Shown here piece after piece: positions 3,742-20,717 of a stretch of DNA of 64,000 bases. This DNA is from Falsiroseomonas frigidaquae (lineage in GTDB: Bacteria; Pseudomonadota; Alphaproteobacteria; Acetobacterales; Acetobacteraceae): NCBI RefSeq assembly GCF_012163145.1, contig NZ_JAAVTX010000003.1, forward strand, positions 496,001 to 560,000, written 5' to 3'. Position 1 is the stretch's first letter. Each line of letters begins with the position of its first letter. The notes beneath the pieces were generated by a model. It saw only the letters and a program-made list of their open reading frames with translations, was not told the origin of the DNA and did not search any database. A program made the translations under genes and the position numbers.

Positions 3742-5007
3742 ATGGCCGAGGCAGATCGCGCCGGCTTCCCGCCGCGCGCGCGCAGACAGGCGCATCCCAC
3801 GCGCCGCGGCTTTCTCACCGGGCTCGCCGCCGGGGCGGCGCTGGCGCCCGCCGCGCTGCACGCGGAAGCCGCGCCGCGGGATTTCGCGCCGACGTTGTTC
3901 GACAGCTTCTTCCTCGGCGGCTTCGAATGCTCCACCCACCGCCGTGGCGACGGCCAGCGGCTCGATGTGATCGCCGCCACCGGCCACGACCGCCTGGCGC
4001 TGCAGGACTACCGCCAGCTGCGCGAGCACGGCATCACCGCGGCGCGCGACGGTGTGCGCTGGCACCTGGTGGAGCGGGCGCCGGGGCGGCACGACTGGTC
4101 CTCGCTGCTGCCGATGCTGCGGGCGGCGGAGCAGGCGCGGATGCAGGTCACCTGGGACCTGATGCATTTCGGCTGGCCGGACCACCTGGATGTCTTCTCC
4201 GCCCGCTTCGTCGCGCATTTCGCCCGCTACGCCGGCGCCTTCGCCCGCCTGCACCTGGCGGAGACCGGGCGCGCGCCGATGCTCTGCCCGATCAACGAGA
4301 TCTCCTTCCTCAGCCATGGCGGCGGCGAGATGGGCTGGATCAATCCGCGAACGCGCGGCCGCGGCGCGGAGCTGCGGCGCAACCTGGTGCGCGCCGCCAT
4401 CGCCGCCGCCCAGGCGATCCGCGCCGCGGCCCCCGGCGCCACGCTGCTGGCGATCGAGCCGCTGGTACACATCGCCGCCGGCGCCGGGCACGACCCCGCC
4501 CGCATCGCCGCGCTGAACGAGGAACAGCACGCGGCGCTGGACATGCTGGACGGGCAGCGGGAGCCGGGGCTGGGCGGCGGCGCGGACAGCTTCGATGCGG
4601 TCGGCGTCAACTACTACTGGAACCACCAATGGGTGCATCATGGCGCGCGGATCGGCGCCGACGACCCCCGCTACCGGCCGCTCGCCCGGCTGATGCAGGA
4701 TATCGGCAGCCGCTACGACCGGCCCATCTTCCTGTCCGAGACCGGCATCGAGGGGCCGAAACGCCCGGAATGGCTGCGCTACATCGGCCGCGCCCTGCGC
4801 GATGCGGTGAAGGCCGGGGTGAAGCTGGAAGGCATCTGCCTCTATCCCATCATGGGCCATCCCGGCTGGGATGATGACCGCTACTGCCCGAACGGCCTGT
4901 TGGAGATGGCACCGCATGACGGCATCCGCCGCCCGGTCCACCAGCCGCTGGCGGCGGAGCTGGCGCGGCAGCAGGCGCTGTTCCGGGCGGTCTTCGCGGC
5001 GGCCTGA
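3742..5007 (+). CDS. Tat-exported clan GH-A (beta-glucosidase-like) glycosidase
   Basis: This 421-aa protein has a Tat-type leader with TRRGFLTGLAAGAAL near residue 20, so it is probably exported folded. The rest reads as a (beta/alpha)8 glycosidase-like barrel. The two catalytic-type glutamates of clan GH-A are visible: PINEISF, where NE matches the acid/base position, and FLSETGIEG, where SETG matches the nucleophile position. An aromatic YYWNHQW lies between them. It resembles GH1/GH5 proteins, and its true substrate is unknown. The start is the ATG at 3742. No strong ribosome site is seen, so the exact start is less certain, but the twin arginine falls where it should. It is divergent from the peroxidase operon and convergent with the VOC gene (8 bp apart). 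Confidence 0.7.
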   Translation: MAEADRAGFPPRARRQAHPTRRGFLTGLAAGAALAPAALHAEAAPRDFAPTLFDSFFLGGFECSTHRRGDGQRLDVIAATGHDRLALQDYRQLREHGITAARDGVRWHLVERAPGRHDWSSLLPMLRAAEQARMQVTWDLMHFGWPDHLDVFSARFVAHFARYAGAFARLHLAETGRAPMLCPINEISFLSHGGGEMGWINPRTRGRGAELRRNLVRAAIAAAQAIRAAAPGATLLAIEPLVHIAAGAGHDPARIAALNEEQHAALDMLDGQREPGLGGGADSFDAVGVNYYWNHQWVHHGARIGADDPRYRPLARLMQDIGSRYDRPIFLSETGIEGPKRPEWLRYIGRALRDAVKAGVKLEGICLYPIMGHPGWDDDRYCPNGLLEMAPHDGIRRPVHQPLAAELARQQALFRAVFAAA

Positions 5008-5021
5008 ACCCGCCGTCAGGC
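5002..5021. terminator. Short hairpin between convergent genes
   Basis: GCCTGA (5002-5007) pairs with TCAGGC (5016-5021) around an 8-base loop. The stem contains the stop codons of both converging genes. There is no T-run, so if it terminates it would do so weakly or with Rho. Confidence 0.3.
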
Positions 5022-5402
5022 GAATAGCGCGGCCACCGCCGGGTCCAGGAAGCGCTGCACCTCGATCGCGTAGCCGGCGGGGTCCTCCAGGAAGAAATGC
5101 TCGATCCGCGCATTGCGCTGCACCGGCCCCAGCTTCGGCGCGCCGGCCGCCGCCAGCCGCGCATGCCAGGCCGCCACATCCGCCACCACCAGGGTCAGCA
5201 GTGCGGCGCTGCGCGGCTGGTGGCGCAGATGGCCCCTGTTGCCATCGACGATGCCGAAATGGCTGCCGGGCGCGATGCGGTAGAGCCGCGCCAGGCCCTG
5301 GTCCACCAGCAGCTCGAAGCCCATCGTCTGCTCGTAGAAGGGGATCACCGCGGACAGGTCCGGGTAGTAGAAGAAGGTGATGCTGGTGCTCGGCGTCATC
5401 AT
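5016..5402 (-). CDS. VOC-family (glyoxalase/dioxygenase-like) protein
   Basis: This 128-aa protein has the length and paired beta-alpha-beta-beta-beta layout of a single-chain VOC protein. The first half contains TFFYYPDLSAVIPFYEQTMGFEL and the second ends in EHFFLEDPAGYAIEVQRFLDP, the typical pattern of a C-terminal metal-ligand Glu (IEVQ). The substrate cannot be told from sequence. Two tandem ATGs occur at the start, and the second (5399) has better spacing from the AGGGA upstream. It lies 7 bp behind the alpha/beta hydrolase, probably in the same transcript. Confidence 0.75.
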   Translation of the reverse strand: MMTPSTSITFFYYPDLSAVIPFYEQTMGFELLVDQGLARLYRIAPGSHFGIVDGNRGHLRHQPRSAALLTLVVADVAAWHARLAAAGAPKLGPVQRNARIEHFFLEDPAGYAIEVQRFLDPAVAALFA

Positions 5403-5409
5403 CGGTCCC

Positions 5410-6177
5410 TCACGCGGTCAGGGCGTCGTGCAGCGCGCCCTGGGCGGGCGCATAGGCGGCGGCGAAGTGGTTCACGCCGGGCAGCACGAAGGAAGCGGCG
5501 CCGGTCGCGGCCACCATCGCCTCCGACTGCCGGATGAATTCCGGGCTTTCCGCCGTGCCCCAGGCCAGGCGCAGCGGCGCGCGGATGCGCCCGGCCTGGC
5601 GGATCGGGCTCAGCGCCGCGACCTCCGCCGCATCCAGCGCCACATAGGCGCGGCGGGCGGAAAGCAGCACGGGTTCCAGCTCATAGACGCCGGAGACCAG
5701 CGTGACGCTGGCGAAATCCATCTCCACGGCCAGCACCGCCGCCAGATGCGCGCCGGAGGAATGGCCGGACAGGTGGATCGGCCCGCGCGGCCGCAGGAAG
5801 CGGACGCAGTCGCGCAGTTCCGCCACCACATCCGGCAGGCGGCGCGCCGGCAGCAGGCTGAAATCCGGCACGGCCACGGCGAAGCCCGCCGCCGTCAGCG
5901 CCGGCGCCAGGAAGCCGGAATCGTCGCGCGACTGCGCCCGCCAGGCGCCGCCATGGATGTGCAGGTGGATGCCGCGCGGCGTGCCTCGCGCAGGGTAGAG
6001 GTCCAGCCCATGCGGGCCGTAGGACAGCGTCTCGGGTCGCAGCGCGGCGCGGGCGGCGGCGGTATCCGCGCGGTAGCGCGCCAGCCATGCCGGCATGTCC
6101 GGCGCCCAGACCCGCTGGTCATAGGCCGCATCCAGCGCCGCCTGATCATACTCCAGCCAGACCTTGTCCCCTGCCAT
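5410..6177 (-). CDS. Alpha/beta hydrolase (arylformamidase/esterase-like)
   Basis: This 255-aa protein has the hallmarks of HSL-type or kynurenine-formamidase-like alpha/beta hydrolases. HIHGGAW is the oxyanion-hole HGG motif, SGHSSGAHLA carries the nucleophile Ser, an Asp or Glu should lie in the LAWGTAESPEF region, and VNHFAA carries the catalytic His near the C-terminus. The start is the ATG at 6175-6177, with an AGGGGG about eight bases upstream. No signal peptide is visible, so it is cytoplasmic. It is followed after 7 bp by the VOC gene and is divergent from the dehydrogenase gene. An arylformamidase role is possible, but no other tryptophan-catabolism gene is present. Confidence 0.75.
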   Translation of the reverse strand: MAGDKVWLEYDQAALDAAYDQRVWAPDMPAWLARYRADTAAARAALRPETLSYGPHGLDLYPARGTPRGIHLHIHGGAWRAQSRDDSGFLAPALTAAGFAVAVPDFSLLPARRLPDVVAELRDCVRFLRPRGPIHLSGHSSGAHLAAVLAVEMDFASVTLVSGVYELEPVLLSARRAYVALDAAEVAALSPIRQAGRIRAPLRLAWGTAESPEFIRQSEAMVAATGAASFVLPGVNHFAAAYAPAQGALHDALTA

Positions 6178-6294: not shown

Positions 6295-7386
6295 ATGCCG
6301 ACTAACGCCGTGCGGGTTGCGGTGATGCCGGGGGATGGCATCGGCGTGGAGGTGACGGAGGCCGCCGCCTTCGTGCTGGAGAAGCTGGTGCGCCGCCATG
6401 GCCTGGGCCTCGCCACCGAGACCCTCTCCGCCGGCGCCTTCGCCTATCGCGACACCGGCACCGCGATGTCGGAGGCGGTGTTCCGCCAGGCGGAGGCCGC
6501 GGACGCCATCCTGCTCGGCGCCATGGGCTGGCCCGGCATCCGCTACCCGGATGGCACGGAGATCGCGCCGCAGATCGAGCTTCGCATGCGCCTCGGCCTC
6601 TATGCCGGCGTCCGCCCGATCCGCGCCCTGCCCGGCGTGCCGCTGGCCCTCGCCGATCCCCGCGCGGCGAAGATGGATTTCGTCATCCTGCGCGAAAGCA
6701 CGGAGGGCCTGTTCTGGGCGCGCGGCCGCGGCGAGGTGATCGAGGACCGGGAGGCGCGGGACACCATGGTGATCACCCGCGCCACGACGGAGCGCCTGTC
6801 CCGCTTCGCCTTCCGCCTGGCGGAGCGTCGCGCCGAGAGGCTGCGCCGGCCGCAGAAGGTCACGCTGGTGGACAAGGCCAATGTCTTCACCAGCATGGCC
6901 TTCATGCGCCGCATCTTCGACGAGGTGGCGCGGGACTTCCCGCAGATCCCCGCCGGACACCATTACGTGGACGCGATGGCGCTGGACCTGGTCCGCCGGC
7001 CCTGGGATTTCGACGTGCTGCCGATGGAGAACATGTACGGCGACATCCTGTCGGACCTGGCCGCCGGGCTGATCGGTGGCATGGGCTATGCGCCCTCGGC
7101 CGATATCGGCGACACCCATGCGGTGTTCCAGCCAAGCCACGGCACCGGGCCGGACATCGCCGGCAAGGGTGTGGCCAACCCCACCGCCATGCTGCTCTCG
7201 GCCGCGCTGATGCTGGACTGGCTCGGCACGCGCGGTGCCGGCCAGGCCTGGTGCGATGCGGCGGCGGAGCTGGAGGCGGCGGTGGATGCCGCCTTCGCCG
7301 CAGGGCTGCGCACCGCCGAATTCGGCGGATCGGGCACGCGGGACGTGGTGCAGGCGGTGGCCGCGCAGCTTCCGGCGGTTGGGTAA
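6295..7386 (+). CDS. Isocitrate/isopropylmalate/tartrate dehydrogenase-family enzyme
   Basis: This 363-aa protein is a complete member of the metal- and NAD-dependent beta-decarboxylating dehydrogenases. It starts with AVMPGDGIG. It has LRESTEGLFWARG in the substrate region, VDKANVF with the catalytic Lys, and HHYVDAMALDLV and DVLPMENMYGDILSDLAAG with the metal-binding aspartates. GTGPDIAGKGVANP is the family's nucleotide-side loop. Sequence alone does not separate 3-isopropylmalate from tartrate or other malate-type substrates, and there are no leuC/leuD genes nearby, so a catabolic 2-hydroxyacid role is as likely as leucine synthesis. The ATG at 6295 has an AAGGGG ten bases upstream. Confidence 0.85.
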   Translation: MPTNAVRVAVMPGDGIGVEVTEAAAFVLEKLVRRHGLGLATETLSAGAFAYRDTGTAMSEAVFRQAEAADAILLGAMGWPGIRYPDGTEIAPQIELRMRLGLYAGVRPIRALPGVPLALADPRAAKMDFVILRESTEGLFWARGRGEVIEDREARDTMVITRATTERLSRFAFRLAERRAERLRRPQKVTLVDKANVFTSMAFMRRIFDEVARDFPQIPAGHHYVDAMALDLVRRPWDFDVLPMENMYGDILSDLAAGLIGGMGYAPSADIGDTHAVFQPSHGTGPDIAGKGVANPTAMLLSAALMLDWLGTRGAGQAWCDAAAELEAAVDAAFAAGLRTAEFGGSGTRDVVQAVAAQLPAVG

Positions 7387-7459: not shown

Positions 7460-10348
7460 CTACAGCGCGCCCAGCACCGCAAACGGCGCCCATTGCGCCG
7501 GGTGGGCGCCGCCCTCCGCCTGCCGCTGCGCCAGCTGCGCCTTGCGCAGCGCCACCGCCGGCGCATCGCCGGCCTGCATCGCCTCCAGCGTCAGCACGCC
7601 GACGCGGGCGGCGGCGATGTCGTCCACATACCAATGCGTCACCATCAGCGACCGCGCGCCGGCGAAGAAGAAGGCGCGGGCGAGGGTCGAAAGGCTCTCC
7701 CCCGCCGCGATCCCGCCGCCGGAATTGCAGGCCGAGAGCAGCACCAGATTCGCATCCAGCTGCAGGTCCAGGATGGTGCCGGAGGTGATCAGCGCCTGCG
7801 CCGCATCCGGCCCGGCGGCGGCGGTGGAGGCGATGATGGCCGGCTCCGTCAGGCAGGTCAGCTCGCTCGGCAGCACGCCATGGGTGGCGAAATGCACCGT
7901 GCGGTAGGACCGAAGATCCGCCTGGCGCACCGCCTGCGCGGTGAAGGCCGCGCCGGTGCGGCTGGCCGTGGGCGGTGAGCCGGTGACCAGCGCCGCCGCC
8001 TGCAGCTCCACCTCCGCCCCACGCAGCGCGGCCAGGGAGGCGAGGCCCTGGCCGCATTCGGGCGCCGCCGGGAAGCTGCGCGCGGCGTAGCTCACCGGCA
8101 CCGGGCGGGGCGCGCCGAAGCCGATCCAGGGCTGTGGCGCCTGCGACGGCGTGACACGGCGCAGCGCCACGAGGCTGGCCGGCGCCGGCAGATGCGAGAT
8201 CGGCAGCCGGTCCAGCAGGAAGGCGGCGCCGGCATGGCCGCGCGGCTGCGGCGGCGGCGCGGTGACGAGAATGCCGTAGGGCAGCGACAGCATCGGCCCC
8301 TCCGCCACCGCCACCAGCGCCGATGCGCGGCCCAGCGGCGCGGCCACGCCGGCGAACAGCGCCTGGTGCAGATCATGCGCGGCGGCGGCATCGAAGGGGG
8401 CGTTGCCGGAGCCATCCTCCACCCCCGCCCGCACCCGCGACACCAGCGCCGCCACCTGCGCGCCATCCACGCCCAGCGGCGCCACGTTGATGGCGCCGTC
8501 CAGCAGGATGAAGCTCCAGCCCCGGCCACGTGGCGGGATGGTGCTGAGCACCAGCGCCTCCCCCGGCCGCAGCGCCGCAAGCACCTCCTCCGCGCTCGCC
8601 ACGGATTGCACGAGCTGCGCGAAGCCGGGGGCGGCGGCCTGCACAGCGGCATCGGCCTGCGCCGCCACATCCGCGCCCTGTGTGATGCGGCGGTCGAAGA
8701 CCGCCAGCTCGGCGGCGGCGGCACCTTCCGCCACGGCGGCATCACGGGCGCGATACAGCTGCACCAGCGCCCGTTCCGCATCATCCTTGGCCCGCAGCGC
8801 CTCGGCCACCGCCGGGTCCCGCGCCCCGGCCGCCAGCCGCGCGGCGGCGCTGGCGATCTGCGTGGTGGTGACGCTGCCCTGGGAAAGCTGCGCGGCCTCG
8901 AAGGCCTCGCCGGTGGCGCCGCCGGCGATGAAGGCATCGAGGCAGGGTGCGATGCGCGCGGGGGTCGTGCCTTCCCGCAGCACGCGCAGCACCGCCACCG
9001 CCTCCCGGCACAGCGCCGCCGTGGCGGGGGCGCCGTCCTGCTGTTGCGCCGCGCGCAGCAGCAGCGTCTCGGCATAGGGGCGGGAGCGCGGTACGCCGCG
9101 GGCGAAGCGAACGGCGGCGCGGGCAAAGCTGGCATCGGCGCTGGCAAGGCGGCCGATGCCCGCCGCCGCCGCGCCATCCGTGCGCGCCAGCCGCGCCGCG
9201 ATCAGGTCCGAGCCCTCCGCCCCCGGCGCCGCGCGTGCCAGCGCCTGTGCCGCCTCGGCTTCCTCGGCCGCCTCGGCATGCCGGCCCTGGCGGCTGAGCA
9301 CCGCCGCGCGGTTGCGCCGCGCCTCCACCAGCCCGAGCAGGGCACGGGCGGCGATCGGGTCCACCGCCAGGCCGCCGAGATCCAGCCCTGCCACGCTGCC
9401 GCGCGGCGCCACGCGGCCGCTGCGTGCTTGCGGCGGCACCAGCGCGCCATACAGCGTCGCACTGCGGCCGAGCGCCGCCAGCGCCGCCGCATCCTCGCCC
9501 TGGTTGGCGGCGTGCAGCCCGCGGTAATGCGCCAGCATGGCAGGCGCCAGCGGGTCCGCCGCACGCGGCGCCAGCGTGGCGGCACGGGTCAGCAGCGCCT
9601 CCGCCTCGGGGAAGCGGCCCTGGTTGGAGAGCTGCAGCGCCAGCAGCACCAGCGGCGTGAAGCGGCCGGAGGGATCGGCCCCCGGCACCCGTTCCTGCAG
9701 CGCGAGCGCGGCGCGATAGGCGGTCTCGGCGGCGACGAAGCGCTCCGCCTGGTTGGCATCCCGCCCCACGGCCATGAGCTGCTCGTAGCGGCCGAGGTCG
9801 CCGGTGGCGAAGGCCTCCCGTGCCAGGCGCGCCGCCACGCCGTCGATCGCATCCGAGGGCAGCGGCGCGGCTTCCGCGCTCAGCCGGCCGGAGAGCACGC
9901 CGATGGCACGTTCCGCCGCCGGCAGCGCCGGCAGCACGCCATCCGCCTGCCAGACCCGGCCGCCGCTTTCCGCCGCCAGCGCGAAGGCCGGCCAGCCGCC
10001 GGCGCGCCGGCGGCATTCCATCAGCGCCGCCGGCTGCCCGCCCAGCACGCGCGTGGCGCGCGGCGCGGCGCAGTCCAGCCGGGATGCGAGCGTGGTGGAG
10101 AGCAGCGCGGCGCCGGCCATGGCGTCGGGCGCGGCCACGGCGCGGATGCGCGCGCTCGGCGCCGTCCAGTCACCGCAGAACACGTCGCCGCCGGTGCCGC
10201 TGCGCGCCAGCCGGCAGGCATCGCCGGCGGCGGTGCGGCCGAGGTCGAGCATCGCGGCGCCATCGGCCGGCGTGGCGACCTGTGCGGAGGGCGGCGGCAG
10301 GGTGCAGCCGGCCAGCGCGAGCAGCAGGGCAAGCGATGAACGGCGCAT
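7460..10348 (-). CDS. CHAT-domain caspase-like lipoprotein with TPR region, TPS operon
   Basis: This 962-aa protein starts with a lipoprotein signal (LLLALAGC, lipobox Cys at about 15). A tetratricopeptide-like helical region covers roughly residues 190-440, a coiled or linker region follows, and the C-terminal 280 residues form a CHAT domain. The caspase-type dyad is intact: His about 823 in VHFATHGVL and Cys about 874 in LLSACNSGGG, followed by AFFFAGARSLMVTHW. The TpsA stop overlaps its ATG (TGATG), so it should be made with the exoprotein and its transporter. Known CHAT domains are proteases or scaffolds. Here it would face the periplasm on a lipid anchor, perhaps processing or checking TpsA. 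That function is inference. Confidence 0.85.
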   Translation of the reverse strand: MRRSSLALLLALAGCTLPPPSAQVATPADGAAMLDLGRTAAGDACRLARSGTGGDVFCGDWTAPSARIRAVAAPDAMAGAALLSTTLASRLDCAAPRATRVLGGQPAALMECRRRAGGWPAFALAAESGGRVWQADGVLPALPAAERAIGVLSGRLSAEAAPLPSDAIDGVAARLAREAFATGDLGRYEQLMAVGRDANQAERFVAAETAYRAALALQERVPGADPSGRFTPLVLLALQLSNQGRFPEAEALLTRAATLAPRAADPLAPAMLAHYRGLHAANQGEDAAALAALGRSATLYGALVPPQARSGRVAPRGSVAGLDLGGLAVDPIAARALLGLVEARRNRAAVLSRQGRHAEAAEEAEAAQALARAAPGAEGSDLIAARLARTDGAAAAGIGRLASADASFARAAVRFARGVPRSRPYAETLLLRAAQQQDGAPATAALCREAVAVLRVLREGTTPARIAPCLDAFIAGGATGEAFEAAQLSQGSVTTTQIASAAARLAAGARDPAVAEALRAKDDAERALVQLYRARDAAVAEGAAAAELAVFDRRITQGADVAAQADAAVQAAAPGFAQLVQSVASAEEVLAALRPGEALVLSTIPPRGRGWSFILLDGAINVAPLGVDGAQVAALVSRVRAGVEDGSGNAPFDAAAAHDLHQALFAGVAAPLGRASALVAVAEGPMLSLPYGILVTAPPPQPRGHAGAAFLLDRLPISHLPAPASLVALRRVTPSQAPQPWIGFGAPRPVPVSYAARSFPAAPECGQGLASLAALRGAEVELQAAALVTGSPPTASRTGAAFTAQAVRQADLRSYRTVHFATHGVLPSELTCLTEPAIIASTAAAGPDAAQALITSGTILDLQLDANLVLLSACNSGGGIAAGESLSTLARAFFFAGARSLMVTHWYVDDIAAARVGVLTLEAMQAGDAPAVALRKAQLAQRQAEGGAHPAQWAPFAVLGAL

Positions 10349-13300
10349 CAGAAATCGCCTCCGCGGATGTTGGGCGGCGCCAGGTCTTCCGCTTCGGAGC
10401 GGTCACGCGCGAAGCTGCCGCTGACATAGGGGACGGAGGGACGGGTCTGCGCCACGGATGCGGCCAGCGCCGCCGGGTCCAGCACCTGAATTACCGGCGC
10501 CGGGTTGTCGGTCACGGTGAAGGCGCCTTCCGGCAGCGTCACCAGGCCCGGTGCCGGCTCCCCAGGCACCACCGGGATTTCGGGCGGCGCCTCGCCCGGC
10601 CCCTCCGGCGTGCCCGGGATCTCGGGCTCACCCGGTATCTCCGGCTCGCCGGGGCCTTCCTCCGGCGGCACGGGCGGCACCGCGCCACACAGCGGAACGC
10701 CGATCGGGCAGCCATTGAACAGGAAGGCGGTCGGCTCCGGCGGGTCCGGCAACGGCGTGCCGGTGGCGCTGCTGCGCCGTCCCTCCGCCGCGGCCGGGCC
10801 ACCGCCGATGCTGGCGATGCTGCCGGTCAGCGCGGCGCCGCTGCCGCCCCGGACCTCCAGCGCCAGCGCATCCAGCGCCCCGGTGGCGCGGCCGCCGACG
10901 CCCAGTTGCAGCCGCACCGGCGTGTTGCTGGCATCAAGCGCATCGAAGCTGATGCTGGGTGCGGCGATGCGCAGCAGGCTGCCGGTGGCGATACCGCCGA
11001 GGCTGGCGCTGCTCACCGCCTCCACCCCGATCACACCGAGCGCCGAGAGCAGCCCGTCCACCGCCACGTTGTCGCCGCGCAGCAGCAGGTCGCCACTGCG
11101 TGCGATGGCGGAGAAGCCGTTGACCGCCAGCGCGCCGGTGGCGTCGAGCGTGGTGGTGGCGCCGGTCGCGGTGCCGTCGATCAGCAGGTCGCCGGCCTGG
11201 GTGATGGCCAGCGTGCCGCCGGCCCGCAGCGTGCGCCCGGCCGGCAGCGCCAGCAGCGGCGCGGCGTTGTTCAGCAGGAAGTCGCCGGTCCCGGCATCGA
11301 AGCCCTCGATCGCGGCGATCTGGTTGGCGCCCTCCAGGAAGGCGCCGCCGGTGGCGCTGCCGGACAGGGCGGCGGCGATCACCGCGCCACCAGGTGCCTG
11401 GGTCAGCGTGCCGGTCACGTCCAGCGCCACGGCCTGTCCGGTGGCGTCGAGGCTGCCGGCCACCAGCAGGTTGCCGCTGTTGCGCAAGGTGAGGCCGCCG
11501 CCAAGGCTGGAGGTGCCCAGCGCACCGATCAGGTTCGTTCCCTCCAGCGTCACTGCGCCAGTGGCGTCCAGCACCAGCAGTGGCGCCTCGATGCGGCCGG
11601 CGCCGGTGGACAGGATGGTGTTGCCGACGAGCGTCACGGCATTGCCCGCCTGCAGCAGCCCTGCGAGCCCGATGTCGCCACCGACCGCCTGCAGCGCGAT
11701 GCCATCCGCTGAGATGGTGCCGTCCACGGCGATGCCGCCGCTGTTGGTCAGCGCCACCTCGCCGGTGGCGAGCAGGCTGGCGCCGGTCGGCACAATCAGC
11801 AGGGGCGTCGCGTTGTTCAGGAGGAAGCCGCCCGTGCCGGCGTCGAAGCCGCCGATCGCCGCCACCTGGTTCGACCCGGCCAGCGTGGCGCCGCCAGTGG
11901 CGCGGCCGCTGAGGGTGTCGGCGATCAGCGCGCCACCAGGCGCCTGGGTCAGCGTGCCGGTGACGTCCAGCGCCACGGCCTGGCCGCTGGCGTCGAGGTT
12001 GCCGGTCAGCAGCAGGTTTCCGGCGTTGCGGAAGCTGAGACCGCCGCCCAGGCTGGCCGGCCCGAGCGCCGCCACCAGATTCGCACCATCCAGCGTCACC
12101 GCGCCGGTCGCGTCCAGGGCGAGCGAGCCCGCCTCGATCCGCCCCGCGCCGCTGGACTGGATGACATTGCCGATCAGCGTGACGCCGTTGCCCGCCTGCA
12201 GCAGCCCCGCCAGGCCGATGTCGCCGCCGGTCGCCTGCAGCGCGATGCCATCCGCCGCGATAGTGCCATCCACGGCGATGCCACCGCTGTTGGTCAGCAC
12301 CACATCACCGCCGGCGAGGAGGCTGGCGCCTGCTGGCAGGCTGAGTGACAGCCCGCTGTTGTTCAGCAGGAAGTCGCCGGTGCCGGCGTCGAAGCCATCG
12401 ATGCGCGACAGGCTGTTCAGGCCCAGCAGCGAGGCGCCGCCGGTCGCGCGGCCACTGAGGGAGGTCGCCTGCAGCCCGCCCGCCGACTGGGTCAGTACGC
12501 CCGTGACATCCAGCGCCACGCCGAAACCGGACGCCTGCACCAGGCCGCCCAGCAGCAGGTCGCCGACATTGGTGAAGGCGATGTTGCCCTCGGCGGAGGA
12601 CGCGCCCAGCGTGGCAACCGTATTCGCACCCGACAGCGTCACGGCACCGGCGGAGGAGAAACTCAGCTGCGAAGCTGCGATCCGCCCGGCACCCACCTCC
12701 GTGATGCCGTCCGCGGCGGAAAGCGTCGCCGTTCCATCTGTCTGCAGCAGCCCATCCAGCGGCAGCGCACCGCTGCTGCGCAACGCGAAACCCGAGGTCG
12801 CCGTGAAGTCGCCGAGCGTGCCGGGCTGGTTGCCCTCGTTGTCCAGCGTGACTGCGCCGCCCACCACACCGGTCAGCCGCGCCACATCCAGATCGGCCCC
12901 CGCCACCTGCGTCACCGCGCCCAGGCTGCGCAGGTCCAGCGTACCCTCCAGCGCCAGCGGCCCGCCGAAGCGCAGGGTGGTCGCCGTGGTTTCCGTCACG
13001 TCGCGGAAGGTCGTGGCGCCAAGCCGCAGCGTCGTCGGCTGGATGGCGGCGAAGGCTGCCGGCGTCAGGTTCAGGCTGCCCGGCTCGGGCACCGGGAACA
13101 CCACGGCGAGGTCGCCCGGCACCGCCGGCGCCACCTCCACCAGCCCGCCGCGGATGAAGGCGCCGGTCAGCACGGACAGGTCGCCGACGCGCAGCGAGAC
13201 GCGGCCCGCCCCGGCATCCAGGCTGGCCGTCGTGCCCAGGCTCAGCGCGGCATCGGTCCGCAGCCCGATATTCGCCGCGGCGATGCTGCTGCCCTCCAGC

Positions 13301-16300
13301 AGGATCGGCGTGCTGCCATTGTCCAGCACGAAGTCGCCGGGGATGGCGATGCTGGCCAGGTTGCCGGTGATGGCATTGCGCAGACCGGTCTGGTCGCCGC
13401 CACGGTCCAGAATGGCGTTGCCTCCCGAGAGCAGGTTCAGATTCTGCCCGACCAGCCGCCCGGCAGTCTGCTGGATGCCGCCCGTGCCGGCGCCGAGGAA
13501 GATCTGGTTCAAGCCGCCCGCATCGCCCAGCGTGCCGGCGAGGAAAAGCCCGCCGGCCAGGTCGGAGGATTCCGAGGAGGGGTTGAAGCCGGCCGCCACA
13601 TCCACGGCCGCCGCGCCATCCGCCCGCACCGTGCTGCCGGCCGCCAGGGTGACGTTGCCGCTGGCGCGCAGCGCGGCACCCTGGCCGCCGCTGACGATGC
13701 CGCTGACCAGCAGGTCGCCGCCCTGCACATCGATGCTGGCGAAGGCGTTCTCCGCGACGAAGGGGCCTGCCACCTCCAGCGAGGTGACGTTGCGAAGCTG
13801 CACGACATCGTTGAAGCCGCCGCCGACCAGTTGCTGCACCACCGCGATCTCGTTGTCGCCGCCGAGGCTGATGCCGCTCGGCGTCGTCGCATCCAGCGCG
13901 CCCAGCAGCAGGCGCGAACCCTCCGCCTGGCTGAGCCGCCCCCCGCGAAGTCGCAGCGTGAAGGTCTCGCCGACGCGGATGTCACCGGACAGCGCCGTCG
14001 CACCCTCGCCGAGCGACGCGGTCAGGCTGTAGTTGCCGCCCACATCACTGGGCCCGATCCCGCCGAGGATGTTGCCCGCCAGCGGATCGACCGGCGTCAC
14101 GGCCAGCGCGGCATCGCCCGGCGTGGCGACGCGAAGCTGGCCGCTCGTGAAGATCCGCCCGCCACTCTGGTCGATGCCGCCAGCCCCGGCGGTCATGGTC
14201 AGGTTCTGCGCCGCGATGATGCCGCCATCCTGCAGGATGCCGCCGGCCCCGGCCGTCAGTTCCACATCATTCGGACTGCCATCGCTGAAGGCGCCTTGGA
14301 TGACGCCGGTCAGGCGCAGCGCCGCAGCCGCGGCGGCATCCGGCGCGCCGGTCGCGAAGTCGAATCCCGCGATCAGGCGCAGCCCGTCGCCTTCCACCCG
14401 CCCGGTTTCCGGCACCACGATGTCGCCGGTCGCGCGCAGCGTGACGGCGAAGGGGCCGGCGCCGGCGCGCACCTCGCCATTCACCGTCAGCGTGCCGCCC
14501 TCAACGTCGATCTGCACCTGGTCCGCACGCACCGTCTGGCCGGCCAGGATGGTCAGCGGCGCGGTGTTGCGGAACTGCAGCGTGAAGGCATCCAGGCGGC
14601 CCAGGCTGGCGATGGCGTTGTCGCCCTGCAGGTTGATCTGGTCGAAGCTGCCGGGGATGGAATCGGCGCCACTGTCGAGCACGCCGCCGAGGAAGCGCCC
14701 GTCGCCCGACTGCACGATGTTGTTGCCGAGGAAATCCGGCGTCTGCAGGTTGATGCGCCCGGTCGCCGGCACCTGCACCAGCGCGTTGATGGCGATCTGC
14801 GCGCCGGACAGCACCAACACCAGCGCCGGGTCCGCGTCCTGCAGCACCAGCGGGGCGTTGATCGTGAGGTTGTTGCCGGCCACCAGCGCCAGCCCGCCCA
14901 GCGCCTTGGTCAGCGCCACCTCCACCGTCAGGTCCTGCGTCGCCTCCAGACGCAGGTTGCCGGCGAAGCCGCCGACCACGCCGGTGGCGATGAAGGAATC
15001 ATTGCCCTCGCCGCCGCTCAGCACGCCGTCATCCAGCAGCGCCGGGTCGATGTTCACGCGCGGGTCGTCATCGGCCACGATGGTCAGCAGCACCGGGTCC
15101 AGCAGGATGCTGCCCGCCTCGCCCTGCGGCGCCGCCACGTCGATCCCGCCCGTGATGGCAAGCCGGTTCTGGCCGGAGACCTCGACGAAGCCGCCATCGC
15201 CGCCCTGCGGCCCGCCGCGCGCGGAAATCGCGCCGGCATGCACGGTGGCCTCGATCGAATTGACCAGCACCTCCCCGCCCGCGCCGCGCTCCGTCGCATC
15301 GGCGCGGATGGTGGCGCCGCTGGCGATGGTGGTGCGGCGCGCCATGCGGGGCGCGACCGGGCCGCGCCGGTCCGTGCCCAGCGCCACGCGGCCGCCACCG
15401 GCCCGGCCGGATGCCTCGATGCGCGCGGTACCCGCGACCGCCACGCGATCCGCCTGCGCCGCGATGCTGCCGCCCGTCCCACCGGCCTCCGGCGCACTGG
15501 CGGTGACCTCGCCCTCGATCCGCACGGAGCCGCCGGTGCCCTGCACCAGCACGCGCCCCGCCCGGGCGCCGCCGGTGCCATCGGCGGCGATGCGGCCGCC
15601 GGCGCGCACCAGGTCCTGCACGATGCCGTCGGCGGCCTGCGCCGTCAGCAGCACGGTGCCGCCGGGGGCGTCGATCAGGCCGCTGTTGCTGACCAGCGCC
15701 TCCCCATTCGCGGGCGCGCGGCGCACCGGGCCGGTGACCTCCAGCGACAGCAGCCCGTCGCCATGCAGGTCGATCGCATGCGTCTCCGCGCCGCCCAGCA
15801 CCACGCGGCCCATGCGGGCGGCGATGGTGCCGCGATTGGCCACCTGGGGCGCCACCAGCGCGGCCAGCCCGGCCTCCCGCACCGTGATGCTGCCCTGGTT
15901 CTCGATCCGCGCACCGGGCTGGCCGGGACGGTCGAAATGCAGCCGCGCGCCGCCGGCCATGAAGGCCTGGTTGCTGATATCGGCGGTGGAGATGATGACG
16001 GATTGCGCCTGCACCTGCGCGCCCGGCGTCACCAGCACGCCGGATTGGTTGACCAGCGCGATCTGCCCATTCGCCGTCATCCGCCCGGCAATCACGGAGG
16101 GGTCCGGCCCGGTCACCCGGTTCAGCGTGATGGACCCGGCGGAGGGCTGCTGGAACTGCACCGTGTGGTCACGGCCGATGTTGAAGCTGCGCCAGTCCAG
16201 CACCGCGCGGTCGGAGGATTGATGCACGCTGGTCAGCGCCGGGTTCTGCGCGATGCTGGCGCTGCCGGCCACCACCTGGCCGCCCTGCGGCCGCGCATCG

Positions 16301-16398
16301 GGCGCGATCTGCGCGAGCGCCGCGCCGGCCATGATGGGCACCAGCGCGGTGCCGCAGAGCAGGCTGTGGCGCCAGTTCCGGGTGCGGGTCGCGGCCAT
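10348..16398 (-). CDS. TpsA-type filamentous hemagglutinin-like exoprotein
   Basis: This 2016-aa two-partner secretion exoprotein begins with a Sec signal (MAATRTRNW to AGAALA). A TPS domain follows over about residues 30-280, including SSDRAVLDWRSFNIG, LNRVTG, and LVNQSGVLVTPGAQV, which is a variant of the usual NPNGI segment. The remainder is a repetitive Ala/Gly/Leu/Thr-rich beta-helix, with two full 182-residue repeats near the C-terminal third. A Pro/Glu-rich hinge (about 1890-1930) precedes a short C-terminal segment. Cysteines are nearly absent, as is typical of secreted beta-helices. The start is the ATG at 16396-16398 with GAAGGGA upstream, 13 bp after the transporter gene. It is probably an adhesin or matrix protein. 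Confidence 0.88.
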   Translation of the reverse strand: MAATRTRNWRHSLLCGTALVPIMAGAALAQIAPDARPQGGQVVAGSASIAQNPALTSVHQSSDRAVLDWRSFNIGRDHTVQFQQPSAGSITLNRVTGPDPSVIAGRMTANGQIALVNQSGVLVTPGAQVQAQSVIISTADISNQAFMAGGARLHFDRPGQPGARIENQGSITVREAGLAALVAPQVANRGTIAARMGRVVLGGAETHAIDLHGDGLLSLEVTGPVRRAPANGEALVSNSGLIDAPGGTVLLTAQAADGIVQDLVRAGGRIAADGTGGARAGRVLVQGTGGSVRIEGEVTASAPEAGGTGGSIAAQADRVAVAGTARIEASGRAGGGRVALGTDRRGPVAPRMARRTTIASGATIRADATERGAGGEVLVNSIEATVHAGAISARGGPQGGDGGFVEVSGQNRLAITGGIDVAAPQGEAGSILLDPVLLTIVADDDPRVNIDPALLDDGVLSGGEGNDSFIATGVVGGFAGNLRLEATQDLTVEVALTKALGGLALVAGNNLTINAPLVLQDADPALVLVLSGAQIAINALVQVPATGRINLQTPDFLGNNIVQSGDGRFLGGVLDSGADSIPGSFDQINLQGDNAIASLGRLDAFTLQFRNTAPLTILAGQTVRADQVQIDVEGGTLTVNGEVRAGAGPFAVTLRATGDIVVPETGRVEGDGLRLIAGFDFATGAPDAAAAAALRLTGVIQGAFSDGSPNDVELTAGAGGILQDGGIIAAQNLTMTAGAGGIDQSGGRIFTSGQLRVATPGDAALAVTPVDPLAGNILGGIGPSDVGGNYSLTASLGEGATALSGDIRVGETFTLRLRGGRLSQAEGSRLLLGALDATTPSGISLGGDNEIAVVQQLVGGGFNDVVQLRNVTSLEVAGPFVAENAFASIDVQGGDLLVSGIVSGGQGAALRASGNVTLAAGSTVRADGAAAVDVAAGFNPSSESSDLAGGLFLAGTLGDAGGLNQIFLGAGTGGIQQTAGRLVGQNLNLLSGGNAILDRGGDQTGLRNAITGNLASIAIPGDFVLDNGSTPILLEGSSIAAANIGLRTDAALSLGTTASLDAGAGRVSLRVGDLSVLTGAFIRGGLVEVAPAVPGDLAVVFPVPEPGSLNLTPAAFAAIQPTTLRLGATTFRDVTETTATTLRFGGPLALEGTLDLRSLGAVTQVAGADLDVARLTGVVGGAVTLDNEGNQPGTLGDFTATSGFALRSSGALPLDGLLQTDGTATLSAADGITEVGAGRIAASQLSFSSAGAVTLSGANTVATLGASSAEGNIAFTNVGDLLLGGLVQASGFGVALDVTGVLTQSAGGLQATSLSGRATGGASLLGLNSLSRIDGFDAGTGDFLLNNSGLSLSLPAGASLLAGGDVVLTNSGGIAVDGTIAADGIALQATGGDIGLAGLLQAGNGVTLIGNVIQSSGAGRIEAGSLALDATGAVTLDGANLVAALGPASLGGGLSFRNAGNLLLTGNLDASGQAVALDVTGTLTQAPGGALIADTLSGRATGGATLAGSNQVAAIGGFDAGTGGFLLNNATPLLIVPTGASLLATGEVALTNSGGIAVDGTISADGIALQAVGGDIGLAGLLQAGNAVTLVGNTILSTGAGRIEAPLLVLDATGAVTLEGTNLIGALGTSSLGGGLTLRNSGNLLVAGSLDATGQAVALDVTGTLTQAPGGAVIAAALSGSATGGAFLEGANQIAAIEGFDAGTGDFLLNNAAPLLALPAGRTLRAGGTLAITQAGDLLIDGTATGATTTLDATGALAVNGFSAIARSGDLLLRGDNVAVDGLLSALGVIGVEAVSSASLGGIATGSLLRIAAPSISFDALDASNTPVRLQLGVGGRATGALDALALEVRGGSGAALTGSIASIGGGPAAAEGRRSSATGTPLPDPPEPTAFLFNGCPIGVPLCGAVPPVPPEEGPGEPEIPGEPEIPGTPEGPGEAPPEIPVVPGEPAPGLVTLPEGAFTVTDNPAPVIQVLDPAALAASVAQTRPSVPYVSGSFARDRSEAEDLAPPNIRGGDF
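11225..12600 (-). repeat. 546-bp tandem repeats inside tpsA
   Basis: Two complete 546-bp (182-residue) units are seen at 11225-11770 and 11771-12316, followed by a partial third unit to about 12600. Shared protein landmarks are LTNSGGIAVDGTI, GGDIGLAGLLQAGN, VALDVTGTLTQAPGG and GFDAGTGxFLLNN. The copies have diverged in places but keep register exactly. They lengthen the beta-helix and are a likely place for recombination and length variation. Confidence 0.85.
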
Positions 16399-16411
16399 GG
16401 CGGAAATCCCT

Positions 16412-18151
16412 TCAGAAACGCGCCAGGACGCGCCAGAACAGCGCATCCGCCTTGACCTCGGCGGCGCCGGGGTTGGGCCGCCGCGTCAGCCGGCGCACCC
16501 CCTCCAATTGCAGTTCCACCACATCATTCACCGGCATCCGCACACCCACCCCGGTGGAGCGCAGCCGGCGGTCCGGATCCTGGTCCTGGTTCTCCCAGGT
16601 CCTTCCGTGGTCGTAGAAGGCGTAGAAGGTGGGCAGCAGGCGCAGCGGCGTGCCCCAGGCCTCCGTCTCGATGCTGGTGGTGAGCTGCAATTCGGCCGAG
16701 GCCGCCAGCGCGCGGTCGCCCGTCACCTCCCCCGCATAGAAGCCGCGGCCGAGCCGGGCGCCGCCGAGGTAGAATTTCTCCGACAGCGGCAGGATATCGT
16801 CCGACCATTGCCCGGCCAGCGTGCCGACCAGCGCCACATCGGCGCCTGCCCATGGCTGGAACAGCGCCTGGCGGCGGCTGACCTCGAAGGCCAGGCGGGT
16901 GAAGTCCACCTGCGCGCCGAGCCGCGCCGCGTCCACATTCCCCGTGCGTTCCGCGCCCAGCCCCTCCAGCCCACGCGACAGGCGCAGGGTGGCGCTGTTG
17001 GCGGCGGGGAAGGCCTCGCCCAGCAGCAGGTCGAAGCGTGCCCATTCGGCACCGAGCCGCAGCACCCGCAGCGAATCGCGGCTGAGCCGCGTGGCGGCGC
17101 CATTGGCACCGTCGATCTCGATCTCGCTCTCGATCAGGTCGAACTGGCCGGTCAGCAGCAGCGATTCAGACCGGCGGCGGATCAGCGGGTAGGACAAGGC
17201 GAGGCCCGCCGTCGTCGTCGTTCCCTCATAGCCGATGCCGCGCAGCGCATCCGAGGGCGTGGCGCGGCCCTGGCCGACGTAGACCCGTGCCCGCAGGCCG
17301 GAGCCGCCGAGGAACAACTCGGTCGAGGCCTGGCCGAAAAGCTGCGTTGCGCCGGCGGCGCCGAACAGCAGCAGCTCCGTCCGCTCGCCGAATTCGGTGA
17401 AGCTGTTGAACTGCACCGCCGCCAGCCCCTGTTCCGGGCCGGTCAGCCGATAGGCGCGGTTGTCCGCGGTGACATAGCCGGTGACGGGCCGGCGGCTTAC
17501 CTGCGCCACCAGGGTCAGCGCGCCGGGCGCGGTGCCGGCCGGGCGCAGCACGCTGCGGATGCCGACGCCCGGGATATCCTGCGCCAGCAGCAGCGCGCGC
17601 TCCAGGCTGGCGACATCCAGCGCCGGGCGCAGGATCAGCCGGTTCAGGAAGCGCAGCACCTGGGTGCCGGCGGGGCCGATATCGCCCTCCAGCAGCACTT
17701 CCGTCACATGGCCCTCGGCCACCACCAGGCGAAGGTTGCCCTGGGCGTCGAGCACCGCATCGACGGCGGTGAAGACGTAGCCCTCCTGCCGGTAGGCTGA
17801 GACGATGGCGGCGCGGGCCGCCTCCACCGCCGCCAGCGGCACGGCGGGCCCGGTCAGCCCCTCGGTCAGCGGCGTCAGCCGCGCCGGCGGCAGCACGGTG
17901 GCGCCCTGGATGGATACGGCGCGGATCGCCAGCGTGCCGGCGGGCGCCGCGGCGGGGGCGACGGGCTGCGTGCCGAGGCCAGGCCCGACCGGCGGAGCGG
18001 CCGGGGGCGCGATGCGGGGAATCGGCGAGCCCTGCGGTGGCGGAACGGGCTGCGCCAGCGCCGTGGCTATGCCGGCCGCCAGGCAGACTCCGGATAGCGC
18101 CACCCGGACGGAGAAGCTGGCGAAGCGGGCGAGTCGTTCTTTACCGGTCAT
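16412..18151 (-). CDS. TpsB-type outer-membrane transporter (ShlB/FhaC family)
   Basis: This 579-aa protein is the export pore for TpsA. It has a Sec signal (to about residue 33), a Pro-rich linker (about 35-70) and a POTRA domain (about 75-150, starting IRAVSIQGATVL). A second POTRA-like region covers about 150-220, and the C-terminal beta-barrel ends in the aromatic residue RVLARF. The FhaC/Omp85 signature region is present as KFYLGGARLGRGF. It is the first gene of a three-gene operon (TpsB, TpsA, CHAT lipoprotein) and is divergent from the DUF1622 gene across a 182-bp region. Confidence 0.9.
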   Translation of the reverse strand: MTGKERLARFASFSVRVALSGVCLAAGIATALAQPVPPPQGSPIPRIAPPAAPPVGPGLGTQPVAPAAAPAGTLAIRAVSIQGATVLPPARLTPLTEGLTGPAVPLAAVEAARAAIVSAYRQEGYVFTAVDAVLDAQGNLRLVVAEGHVTEVLLEGDIGPAGTQVLRFLNRLILRPALDVASLERALLLAQDIPGVGIRSVLRPAGTAPGALTLVAQVSRRPVTGYVTADNRAYRLTGPEQGLAAVQFNSFTEFGERTELLLFGAAGATQLFGQASTELFLGGSGLRARVYVGQGRATPSDALRGIGYEGTTTTAGLALSYPLIRRRSESLLLTGQFDLIESEIEIDGANGAATRLSRDSLRVLRLGAEWARFDLLLGEAFPAANSATLRLSRGLEGLGAERTGNVDAARLGAQVDFTRLAFEVSRRQALFQPWAGADVALVGTLAGQWSDDILPLSEKFYLGGARLGRGFYAGEVTGDRALAASAELQLTTSIETEAWGTPLRLLPTFYAFYDHGRTWENQDQDPDRRLRSTGVGVRMPVNDVVELQLEGVRRLTRRPNPGAAEVKADALFWRVLARF

Positions 18152-18333: not shown

Positions 18334-18786
18334 ATGATTGAAAACGAGCCCGGCGCCTGGGTGGGCATGATCGCGGACTGGACGGCGGCGGGGCTGGAGA
18401 TGGCCGGCGTGCTGGCGCTTCTGGCGGGCGTGGTCATCACCACCTTCCTGTTCCTCCGCACCGGGCTGCAGCGGGGCGCCCCGGGCTGGGCGGCGGCCTT
18501 CATCCCCTACCGCGCCAATCTCGGCCGGGCGATCCTGCTGGGCCTCGAATTGCTGGTGGCGGCGGATATCGTGCACACCGTCGCCGCGCCGCTGACCTTC
18601 GAGACGGTGGCGACCCTCGGCCTGATCGTGCTGATCCGGACCGTGCTCAGCCTGTCGCTGGAGGTGGAGATCGAGGGCCGCTGGCCCTGGCGCCGGCATG
18701 GGCCTGAGACGCCGGAGAATTCGGTGGCGCAGCCCCGTTCCGTGACACCGCGTTCGAAATCGACCGAGCACCCGATCCGCGACTGA
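18334..18786 (+). CDS. DUF1622 membrane protein
   Basis: This 150-aa protein has three hydrophobic segments (about 17-37, 62-80, 88-108) and the DUF1622 landmark YRANLGRAILLGLELLVAAD. The function of the family is unknown; it is a small inner-membrane protein. The C-terminal 40 residues are hydrophilic and lie over the 3' end of the oppositely oriented actF gene: 140 bp (18647-18786) encode both proteins on opposite strands. Confidence 0.8.
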   Translation: MIENEPGAWVGMIADWTAAGLEMAGVLALLAGVVITTFLFLRTGLQRGAPGWAAAFIPYRANLGRAILLGLELLVAADIVHTVAAPLTFETVATLGLIVLIRTVLSLSLEVEIEGRWPWRRHGPETPENSVAQPRSVTPRSKSTEHPIRD

Positions 18787-19771
18787 GCAAGGCGGCGCGT
18801 TCCGCCCGCCACCACAGGCCGAAGGCCAGGCTCAACCCCGCCAGCACCAGCGCATCCAGCCACGCCGCCGGCTGGGCCATCGGTGCATCCGGCCGGACCA
18901 CCCACCACAGATGCGCGGCGAACTGCACCAGCAGCAGCCAGCACACCGCCACCATGCGCCAGCGTCCATGGTCCGGCGGCGCGGCCAGGGCGATGGCCAG
19001 CAGCAGCGCCGGCAAGGCGATACCCGGCTGCAGCCAGCTCCACCCCTCCAGCCGCCGCAGGTACCAGGCCGATTCCTCGGGCAGGTCCGCCATCCAGACC
19101 ACGATGAACTGGGTGAACCACAGCCACAGCACGGCCAGGCCCAGCGTCAGCAGCGCCCGTTCCAGCCCGGGCAGCCCTTCCGAATCCGGATGCGTGCGCG
19201 CCGCCAGGATGGCCACCGCCAGCGCCGCGGCCAGACCGGCCACCCACATGGAGAAGCCCTGCAGGCTGGCGTACCAGGTGGTGTCGCGGGACAGCACCCA
19301 GTCGAAGCCGGCCAGCGTCGCCGTCGGCAGCAGCAGCACCAGCGCCAGCACCGACAGCCGCGGATGCGGCCCCGGCCGCGCCAGTCCCCAGCCCAGCAGC
19401 GCCCAGACCAGCAGGCAGGCGGCACCGCGCAGCCGGAAGAACCAGGGCTGCATCAGCGCCGCGATCGGGCTGTCAGCCGCCAGGGTGGAGCCTGCCGCCC
19501 AGAGGTAGAGGTGTTCCGGCACCAGCAGGACCGGCAGCGCCATCAGCGCCAGCAGTGGCAGGCTGCGCGCTGCGGCCTCCAGCGGCAGCCGCACCGGGGT
19601 CAGCCAATCCTCCCGCAGCAGATGGCCGAGTGCCAGCACGCCAACTGCGCCGACGCCGATATGCGCCCAGGCGAGGAAGCCGGTGAGCCAGGCCTCCGCC
19701 AGCGCCGGCCCGCCGAAGGCCGTCACCGCCAGCACGGCAAGGGCGAGCCCGAGGAAGGCTGCGATCCTCAT
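18647..19771 (-). CDS. actF: Alternative complex III subunit ActF (membrane)
   Basis: This 374-aa polytopic protein has about ten predicted helices and is the last gene of the actBCDEF set. Its ATG overlaps the actE stop (ATGA), so the order B-C-D-E-F is unbroken. ActF is a quinol-side membrane subunit of alternative complex III, a structural replacement for cytochrome bc1 that passes electrons from quinol to cytochrome c or directly to an oxidase. The last 45 residues are low-complexity (Ser, Pro, Ala, Arg) and overlap the DUF1622 gene on the other strand. That tail could be a late extension after loss of the original stop. Confidence 0.75.
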   Translation of the reverse strand: MRIAAFLGLALAVLAVTAFGGPALAEAWLTGFLAWAHIGVGAVGVLALGHLLREDWLTPVRLPLEAAARSLPLLALMALPVLLVPEHLYLWAAGSTLAADSPIAALMQPWFFRLRGAACLLVWALLGWGLARPGPHPRLSVLALVLLLPTATLAGFDWVLSRDTTWYASLQGFSMWVAGLAAALAVAILAARTHPDSEGLPGLERALLTLGLAVLWLWFTQFIVVWMADLPEESAWYLRRLEGWSWLQPGIALPALLLAIALAAPPDHGRWRMVAVCWLLLVQFAAHLWWVVRPDAPMAQPAAWLDALVLAGLSLAFGLWWRAERAALLSRGSGARSISNAVSRNGAAPPNSPASQAHAGARASGPRSPPPATG

Positions 19772-20196
19772 GGCGACAGGCGCTCCACGAAGCGGGCGAT
19801 GGCCCAGCGATCCGCGGGCGACAGGCGATCCGCGAAGGGGTGCGCGCGGGCGTGGTTCTCCGCGATCACCGTCATCGTCCGCATGGCATCGGCCGGCAGC
19901 CTCGGCGGCGCCGGGAAGCCCTGCGCCACCGCGCCGCCATCCCCGGCGCCGGTCGCGCCATGGCAGGGCGCGCAGAAGATGGCGTAGCGATCGGCGCCGC
20001 GCGCCAGCAGCGCCTCCGTCACCGGCGGGCCGGGCGGGGCGAGCGCCCGGCGCCAGGCGGCATCGCCCTGCGCCACGGCACCGGGCGGCGGCGGCGCGGG
20101 CGGCGGCAGCGGTTCGCTGGCGGGCCAGCCATCGCAGCCGGCCAGCAGCAGCAGGGTGGGCAGTAGCAGAGCGGGCAGCAGCAGGCGGGCCTTCAT
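19768..20196 (-). CDS. actE: Alternative complex III subunit ActE (monoheme cytochrome c lipoprotein)
   Basis: This 142-aa protein has a lipoprotein signal (LLLLAGC) and a Pro-rich linker. A small cytochrome c domain follows with the heme-binding CAPCH in YAIFCAPCHGATGAG; a candidate Met ligand lies in AMRTMTVI. It fits the monoheme subunit ActE. The ATG at 20194-20196 overlaps the actD stop by four bases, and its own stop overlaps the actF start. Confidence 0.85.
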   Translation of the reverse strand: MKARLLLPALLLPTLLLLAGCDGWPASEPLPPPAPPPPGAVAQGDAAWRRALAPPGPPVTEALLARGADRYAIFCAPCHGATGAGDGGAVAQGFPAPPRLPADAMRTMTVIAENHARAHPFADRLSPADRWAIARFVERLSP

Positions 20197-20717
20197 CCGG
20201 GAAGCTCCGCCAGGCTGAGCGGCTTCTGGCGACGCAGCAGATGCAGGGCCTCCCGCGCATCCAGCCCGGGGTCGCCGGCGAACAGGCAAAGGAAGAAGCG
20301 GTCCTCGCTGGCACGGCCGAAGCCGGGCACGGCGAAGACCGGGTGGCTCAACCGCGGCAGCCGGTTCAGCGCCAGCATGCCGATCAAGGCGCCCGCCGCC
20401 GCCCAGAGCACGGCGACGATGGTGGTGGCGGGCAGGAAGGCGGGCAGCGCATGCAGCGGCCGGCCGCCGACATTCAAGGGATAGGCGTGCACGCTGAGCC
20501 ACCACTGCGTCGCATAGGCCAGCGCCGCGCCGAACAGCCCCGCGCCGATGGCGATCCAGGCGACGCGCGCGCCGGTGGCGCCGAGCAGCTTCGCGGCCTC
20601 CGGCACCGGATAGGGGGCATAGGCATCCATGCGCCGCCAGCCGGCATCCCGCGCCGCGCGCAGCGCCGCCACCAGCGCATCCGGATTGTCGAAGGCCGCG
20701 ATCACGCCGGGGCTCAT
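20193..20717 (-). CDS. actD: Alternative complex III subunit ActD (DUF3341)
   Basis: This 174-aa protein has the DUF3341 layout: a soluble N-terminal part (IAAFDNPDALVAALRAARDAGW, then MDAYAPYPV), two membrane helices (about 50-72 and 92-115) and a conserved C-terminal FGRASEDRFFL. ActD is a membrane-anchored cytoplasmic or periplasmic subunit without cofactors. The ATG at 20715-20717 overlaps the actC stop. Confidence 0.85.
   Translation of the reverse strand: MSPGVIAAFDNPDALVAALRAARDAGWRRMDAYAPYPVPEAAKLLGATGARVAWIAIGAGLFGAALAYATQWWLSVHAYPLNVGGRPLHALPAFLPATTIVAVLWAAAGALIGMLALNRLPRLSHPVFAVPGFGRASEDRFFLCLFAGDPGLDAREALHLLRRQKPLSLAELPG

Follow-up and report, generated by a model that had tools for sequence, protein, structure and literature searches.

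The genes for a TpsB translocator (579 aa), a TpsA exoprotein (2016 aa) and a 962-aa TPR-CHAT lipoprotein, identified from their open reading frames and Pfam matches, follow one another in a single minus-strand operon, and we put at about 50% the probability that they form a three-part type Vb secretion system in which the CHAT lipoprotein would read the C-terminal tail of TpsA and process or release the exoprotein. The sequences show the operon, a dedicated CHAT clade, a conserved His/Cys dyad, an association of a C-terminal TpsA tag with CHAT and, in many relatives, a cysteine hook at a fixed spacing from that tag. The parts of the reading merit different degrees of belief: it is likely that the CHAT protein works on the TpsA tail or by way of it, its cutting TpsA is an even bet, and release of TpsA as the main outcome is a tentative proposal. 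The contact between the TPR and the tag, the protease activity, the cut site and the outcome are points that we infer.

The window, by which we mean the whole 64,000-nucleotide stretch that was analysed, is part of contig C13 in a genome of 6.08 Mb. The TGA of tpsB is followed by a 13-bp gap and the ATG of tpsA, the stop of tpsA and the start of the CHAT gene share a TGATG overlap, and nothing interrupts the order tpsB, tpsA, CHAT; these frames and spacings are as the original prediction had read them. The features are as follows:

16412..18151, minus strand: TpsB, the outer-membrane translocator, 579 aa, with POTRA_2 and a ShlB barrel (Pfam and open reading frame)
10348..16398, minus strand: TpsA exoprotein, 2016 aa, with its start codon 13 bp beyond the stop of tpsB
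15601..16290, minus strand: TPS secretion domain of TpsA, residues 53-282 in the 2032-aa numbering (PF05860, E 2.6e-28)
10687..10710, minus strand: TpsA Cys pair CPIGVPLC (Cys1913/Cys1920, 2032-aa numbering), a putative CdrA-like hook
10384..10686, minus strand: Pro/Glu-rich linker between the Cys pair and the tag
10351..10383, minus strand: TpsA tag at the C-terminus, LAPPNIRGGDF-COOH, a divergent version of the linked-TpsA tag
7460..10348, minus strand: TPR-CHAT caspase-like lipoprotein, 962 aa, whose start overlaps the tpsA stop
10304..10315, minus strand: lipobox LAGC, residues 12-15, with predicted lipidated Cys15 and Thr at +2
9935..10258, minus strand: alpha/beta domain at the N-terminus, residues 31-138, containing two Cys pairs (45/58, 93/112)
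8819..9934, minus strand: TPR superhelix, residues 139-510, carrying Cys447/Cys469
7469..8383, minus strand: CHAT peptidase domain, residues 656-960 (Pfam and fold matches)
7880..7882, minus strand: codon of the predicted catalytic His823, invariant in 24/24 homologues
7727..7729, minus strand: codon of the predicted catalytic Cys874, invariant in 24/24 homologues

The first two genes have the make-up of a type Vb system, with a TPS domain in TpsA and an adjoining TpsB that has POTRA and a ShlB-type barrel. Both Pfam matches of TpsB lie over their cut-offs (ShlB, PF03865, E 2.8e-18; POTRA_2, PF08479, E 4.7e-11), and the TPS domain of TpsA is also matched by TIGR01901 (E 1.2e-19). An in-frame ATG at 16446, inside tpsB, offers an alternative start that gives a TpsA of 2032 aa; by eye, a signal-peptide-like stretch follows the start of the 2016-aa form. 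The statement that known two-partner secretion (TPS) systems need only TpsA and TpsB was too strong; extra partners are listed in a TPS review (PMC5422565). The idea of CHAT as a genuine third component has held up, by conserved co-occurrence and a conserved dyad, and its signal and cysteine pattern suggest that the protein is extracytoplasmic.

The CHAT domain (PF12770, residues 656-960, E 1.8e-38) scores 133.1 bits against a curated cut-off of 24, and a TPR_12 match (E 5.4e-05) falls under its own. In a search with the AlphaFold model of the lipoprotein (mean pLDDT 84.5), the CHAT part matched Craspase TPR-CHAT, separase and gingipain, placing it in the Craspase-type TPR-CHAT fold; the matches of the TPR part include peptide-binding TPRs such as LGN, and the N-terminal alpha/beta domain (residues 31-138) found weak matches only. 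The gene has a dN/dS of 0.20 against a same-genus relative (G002). The intact His/Cys dyad foreseen in the window recurs among the neighbours, with both residues unchanged across the 24 aligned full-length CHAT homologues on which all dyad and cysteine counts are based. A loose His motif missed ten CHAT rows and a Cys motif five, and the two His-missed rows that were aligned (L078 and L096) do have the His.

Cysteines outside the dyad are also retained: Cys45/58 and Cys93/112 are kept together in 23 of the 24 homologues, Cys765 and Cys832 are present in all of them, and Cys447/469 occur always both or neither (11/13). These pairs would fit an oxidising compartment. A Cys stands at the lipobox column in 19/24 homologues of the alignment and lipoprotein-like signals are present in many TPS-linked CHAT members; lipid anchoring and a periplasmic location are predictions from signal and pattern. 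The LGN-like TPR matches and the frequent lipoprotein-like signals would also suit a non-proteolytic tether or chaperone, a lipoprotein whose TPRs keep hold of the TpsA tail at the outer membrane and whose CHAT fold is structural only, but an idle fold is hard to square with a His and a Cys invariant in 24/24, and we consider this role very unlikely.

The immunity role of some CHAT proteins, among them the fold match Craspase, could point to a role in defence or kin recognition, with neighbours being killed or spared, an idea raised in the original prediction. PADLOC matched none of the three proteins, Pfam found no toxin domain in TpsA such as contact-dependent inhibition (CDI) would have at its C-terminus (only the TPS domain and a sub-threshold repeat, although polymorphic toxins can escape Pfam), and no further gene lies between the three; the idea is left without support and we give it hardly any credence.

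CHAT genes stand beside TPS genes more often than chance, one of the points on which the third-component claim had been staked. In 60 genomes (the window's own and 59 relatives), 18 of the 33 strong CHAT matches (>100 bits) are preceded on their own strand by a TPS domain, against a chance expectation of roughly 0.4%; several of the remaining strong matches are on short contigs. Across 120 genomes of the family, as delimited by the genome taxonomy used (NCBI assigns Falsiroseomonas to Roseomonadaceae), a TPS domain is found in 41/48 genomes with CHAT vs 18/72 without (Fisher p 5e-11). Beyond this family, the majority of CHAT genes are not beside TPS: among 190 genomes of the class, 11/67 strong matches are linked in the window's order, the window included. 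Apart from the window's, these loci number ten; they come from nine genomes in seven further alphaproteobacterial families and have TpsA and then CHAT on one strand, and one further class locus has CHAT and TPS in reverse order. Two class loci (L254 and L256) repeat L097 and L088, so the tags at these two add nothing to the evidence.

A tree of 142 CHAT domains, built by a quick method with SH-aLRT and no bootstrap, places the window's CHAT in a clade of 78 (aLRT support 99), made up of 63 rows called linked, 15 without a context call and 0/36 clear non-TPS rows, the latter labels having been assigned by hand from locus context and annotations. Because this clade holds none of the 36, TPS-linked CHAT is, in this tree, a dedicated branch and not CHAT at large. 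All 70 linked rows of the tree divide into 50 called via the TpsA profile and 20 via the hook/tag pattern alone; within the clade, 43 of the 63 were called via the profile and 20 via the pattern, and these 20 are circular with regard to the tag because the pattern called them. One linked row (L113), hand-listed as non-TPS and overridden by the pattern, belongs to a contig that starts 284 bp before the CHAT frame and is better left without a context call, which makes the clade 62 linked and 16 without a call.

Complete CHAT-linked TpsA frames range from about 990 to 5430 residues, yet they mostly share a common tail, in which a Cys pair ([YF]x[FI]NxCx6C) is followed by the tag ...DxxLPNVSxxD[YF]-COOH. 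The window's TpsA has its pair near the C-terminus, at Cys1913/Cys1920 of 2032, as in a CdrA/HMW1-type hook. The hook is present in 43/48 CHAT-linked TpsAs, and the distance from hook to end is 40-43 residues in 28 of these 43 vs none of 14 hook-bearing CHAT-free TpsAs, in which it spans 47-131 residues. Several points count against our preferred reading of a tag-reading CHAT protein: the hook is missing in 5/48 linked TpsAs, the window's own tag is diverged, and its hook-to-end distance is 112 residues, not about 41 (82 and 69 in the relatives L203 and L212), as do the tag exceptions L199, L233 and L260 described below. The Pro/Glu stretch near the C-terminus, originally proposed as a hinge and possible cut site, is real; it is not the likely recognition element but an expanded linker, and what is conserved is the Cys pair upstream of it and the tag downstream.

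In the first set, the strict tag pattern is found in 20/28 CHAT-linked vs 0/23 CHAT-free complete TpsAs, counted after removal of duplicates that repeat other contigs (L104, L115, L090, L079 and L073). Since this pattern was composed after inspection of the same TpsAs, a 12-residue profile, trained on the 20 first-set TpsAs that fit it and with the maximum of 1000 internal 45-mers as its threshold, was scored on new genomes. There, the tag rises above the internal-null maximum in 18/19 linked vs 1/7 unlinked TpsAs (Fisher p 2e-4). The hold-out drew on 82 TPS matches, of which 59 came from genomes outside the first set; 15 of these were left out as truncated or broken and 44 taken. Of the 44, 5 had no local TpsA profile match, 9 ended before the C-terminus and the remaining 30 received a score (19 linked, 7 unlinked and 4 undecidable). 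One linked locus (L234) was counted despite a stop inside its TPS match. Another (L226) was counted as unlinked and is really linked, a correction not entered in the hold-out counts; an in-frame stop (7042-7044), which may be genuine decay or a sequencing error, divides this TpsA in two, and the tag still closes the second piece. At one undecidable locus (L213), the start of a CHAT lipoprotein follows at the contig end, likewise not entered in the counts.

The tag has exceptions and variants. The profile match of L210 lies 21 residues before the end and is not terminal; L199 is CHAT-linked and lacks the tag; L233 has a weak tag and no adjacent CHAT, with a CHAT on another contig of the same genome; and the C-terminus of L260, a linked system of another family, has no recognisable tag. 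More distant linked systems carry VNQGNED[FL], SNTGKD[TG]LW or GNE[AG]LW, such that tags vary by CHAT lineage. Over 46 pairs, the correlation of tag distance is 0.67 with CHAT distance and 0.58 with the TPS-domain distance of the same TpsA. The tag thus diverges more in step with CHAT than with the TPS domain of the protein that carries it: the partial r between tag and CHAT given the TPS domain is 0.43 and the reverse is 0.12 (n=46; permutation p 5e-4).

The correlation of 0.58 between tag and TPS-domain distance, together with a CHAT clade that is largely one lineage, would suit a tag that serves TpsB, or the folding or anchoring of TpsA, and that accompanies CHAT by inheritance and not by recognition; lineage effects are only partly controlled, because 14 of the 23 first-set CHAT-free TpsAs are one orphan family of one genus. 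We nonetheless think this decidedly unlikely, since, within the same genus, TpsAs without CHAT have the hook but no tag, and the partial correlation favours CHAT over the TPS domain. The orphan family itself (L152-L165, of the same genus) has the hook without the tag, and neither TpsB nor CHAT was found in the 9 to 10.5 kb surroundings of its members, so any TpsB that serves them would have to do so in trans.

With recognition of the tag by CHAT as the preferred reading, we envisage the following sequence of events. TpsB would export TpsA N-terminus first, and the C-terminus would stop in the periplasm, held by the Cys-pair hook and displaying the short tag there. The CHAT lipoprotein, facing the periplasm, would bind the tag, probably through its TPR superhelix, as TPRs commonly behave. 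The caspase-like domain would then cut TpsA near the hook, leading to release or trimming when a signal allows.

The closest parallel is CdrA of Pseudomonas aeruginosa, which, in the available part of one paper, is most likely exported N-terminus first (PMC4694147) and whose C-terminal Cys pair is thought, in the excerpts of another, to lock it in the TpsB pore with its tail in the periplasm (PMC11898600). As far as the excerpted sources go, CdrA/CdrB with LapG shares with the system proposed here a putative C-terminal Cys-pair anchor and processing near the C-terminus by a periplasmic protease (PMC11898600, PMC4694147, PMC5422565, PMC7616799). It differs in that LapG belongs to another family (PF06035), whereas the putative protease here is a TPR-CHAT protein that is encoded in the operon, predicted to be lipidated and matched to a tag. 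The LapG family was found in 0/36 family genomes searched, the window's own included, and the CHAT protein has no PF06035 match at E 0.01, which sets it apart from LapG (BTLCP, Peptidase_C93). By analogy, the simplest reading would be that TPR-CHAT does a LapG-like job here, though unrelated to LapG; one is not simply a substitute for the other, because one genome of another family (G044) has LapG-family genes and a TPS-linked CHAT together.

The tail might also be read for another end, with CHAT taking it as a report of secretion and then cutting something else or signalling inward, for instance via a Ser/Thr kinase. A Ser/Thr kinase gene lies directly downstream in 31/57 readable TPS-linked CHAT loci vs 0/34 non-TPS loci, so some versions may signal inward; the kinases have a DUF4384 match in 2/2 scanned and a TM-like segment in 4/4 checked (in L056, a second, weaker one). 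One structural neighbour, DdvA, is, going by the names of entry and molecule, a transmembrane anti-sigma factor with a CHAT domain. The kinase is, however, absent beside the window's operon and in 25 further loci of the 57, so an adjacent kinase is not essential, and we hold such a sensor to be unlikely as the account of the window. An example of the arrangement is at L074, with the kinase downstream of CHAT at 4102-6108. Taking these loci together with processing of TpsA, we suggest as a possibility short of even odds that Alphaproteobacteria have a novel class of type Vb system with three components. Its exoprotein would carry a C-terminal tag in the periplasm, typically at a set distance from a Cys hook, and a dedicated tag-reading TPR-CHAT protein would cut and release the exoprotein and would often be coupled to inward signalling by a transmembrane Ser/Thr kinase. 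If this class is true, it would represent a substrate-tag-gated, caspase-like control of the cell surface.

Other systems share single traits with this one. According to the excerpts of the TPS review (PMC5422565), HMW1/HxuA-type TpsA proteins have a C-terminal Cys pair, are presumably disulphide-locked and leave a tail in the periplasm, but the third gene of their operons is no protease gene and encodes a glycosyltransferase or a TonB-dependent transporter; BcpO, in the CDI loci of some Burkholderia species, is a predicted lipoprotein encoded inside a TPS locus. In the same excerpts, the genes for proteases that mature TpsA are described as apparently lying outside TPS operons, and some putative maturation proteases remain unidentified (PMC5422565). 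Csx29 of Craspase, separase and DdvA act elsewhere, in a CRISPR complex, in chromosome segregation and, by its entry title, as an anti-sigma factor; the window's CHAT protein differs from them by its lipoprotein signal, its secretion operon and an extra N-terminal domain with Cys pairs. Among the papers listed by full-text literature searches, none joins CHAT with TPS. What would be new against known TPS and tail processing, judged from sequence, is another protease family, its placement in the operon and a substrate tag. If true, TPS systems would gain a dedicated in-operon TpsA maturation protease of caspase/separase fold with a tag that names its substrate, bacterial CHAT outside CRISPR would gain a concrete substrate to test, and there would be a suggestion as to how LapG-free bacteria control cysteine-hooked surface proteins.

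CHAT genes also occur beside other export-like genes. The window's own genome has a second one (L052; G000 contig C2, 8000-27000), where a SlipAM (Slam) protein, a 1110-residue exoprotein-like frame and CHAT are adjacent on one strand, and relatives of that frame lie upstream of or overlap a CHAT frame at two loci of G067 (L247 and L248). CHAT may pair with more than one outer-membrane export route. At L105 (10977-13709) and L111 (2619-5984), cadherin/Big_9 repeat proteins are encoded after CHAT and one of them has an autotransporter barrel, possibly another pairing of CHAT with a surface protein. The genes adjoining the operon in the window (18647-24792, minus strand) look by eye like an alternative complex III, with what we take to be an iron-sulphur/molybdopterin-type subunit, an NrfD-like subunit and cytochromes.
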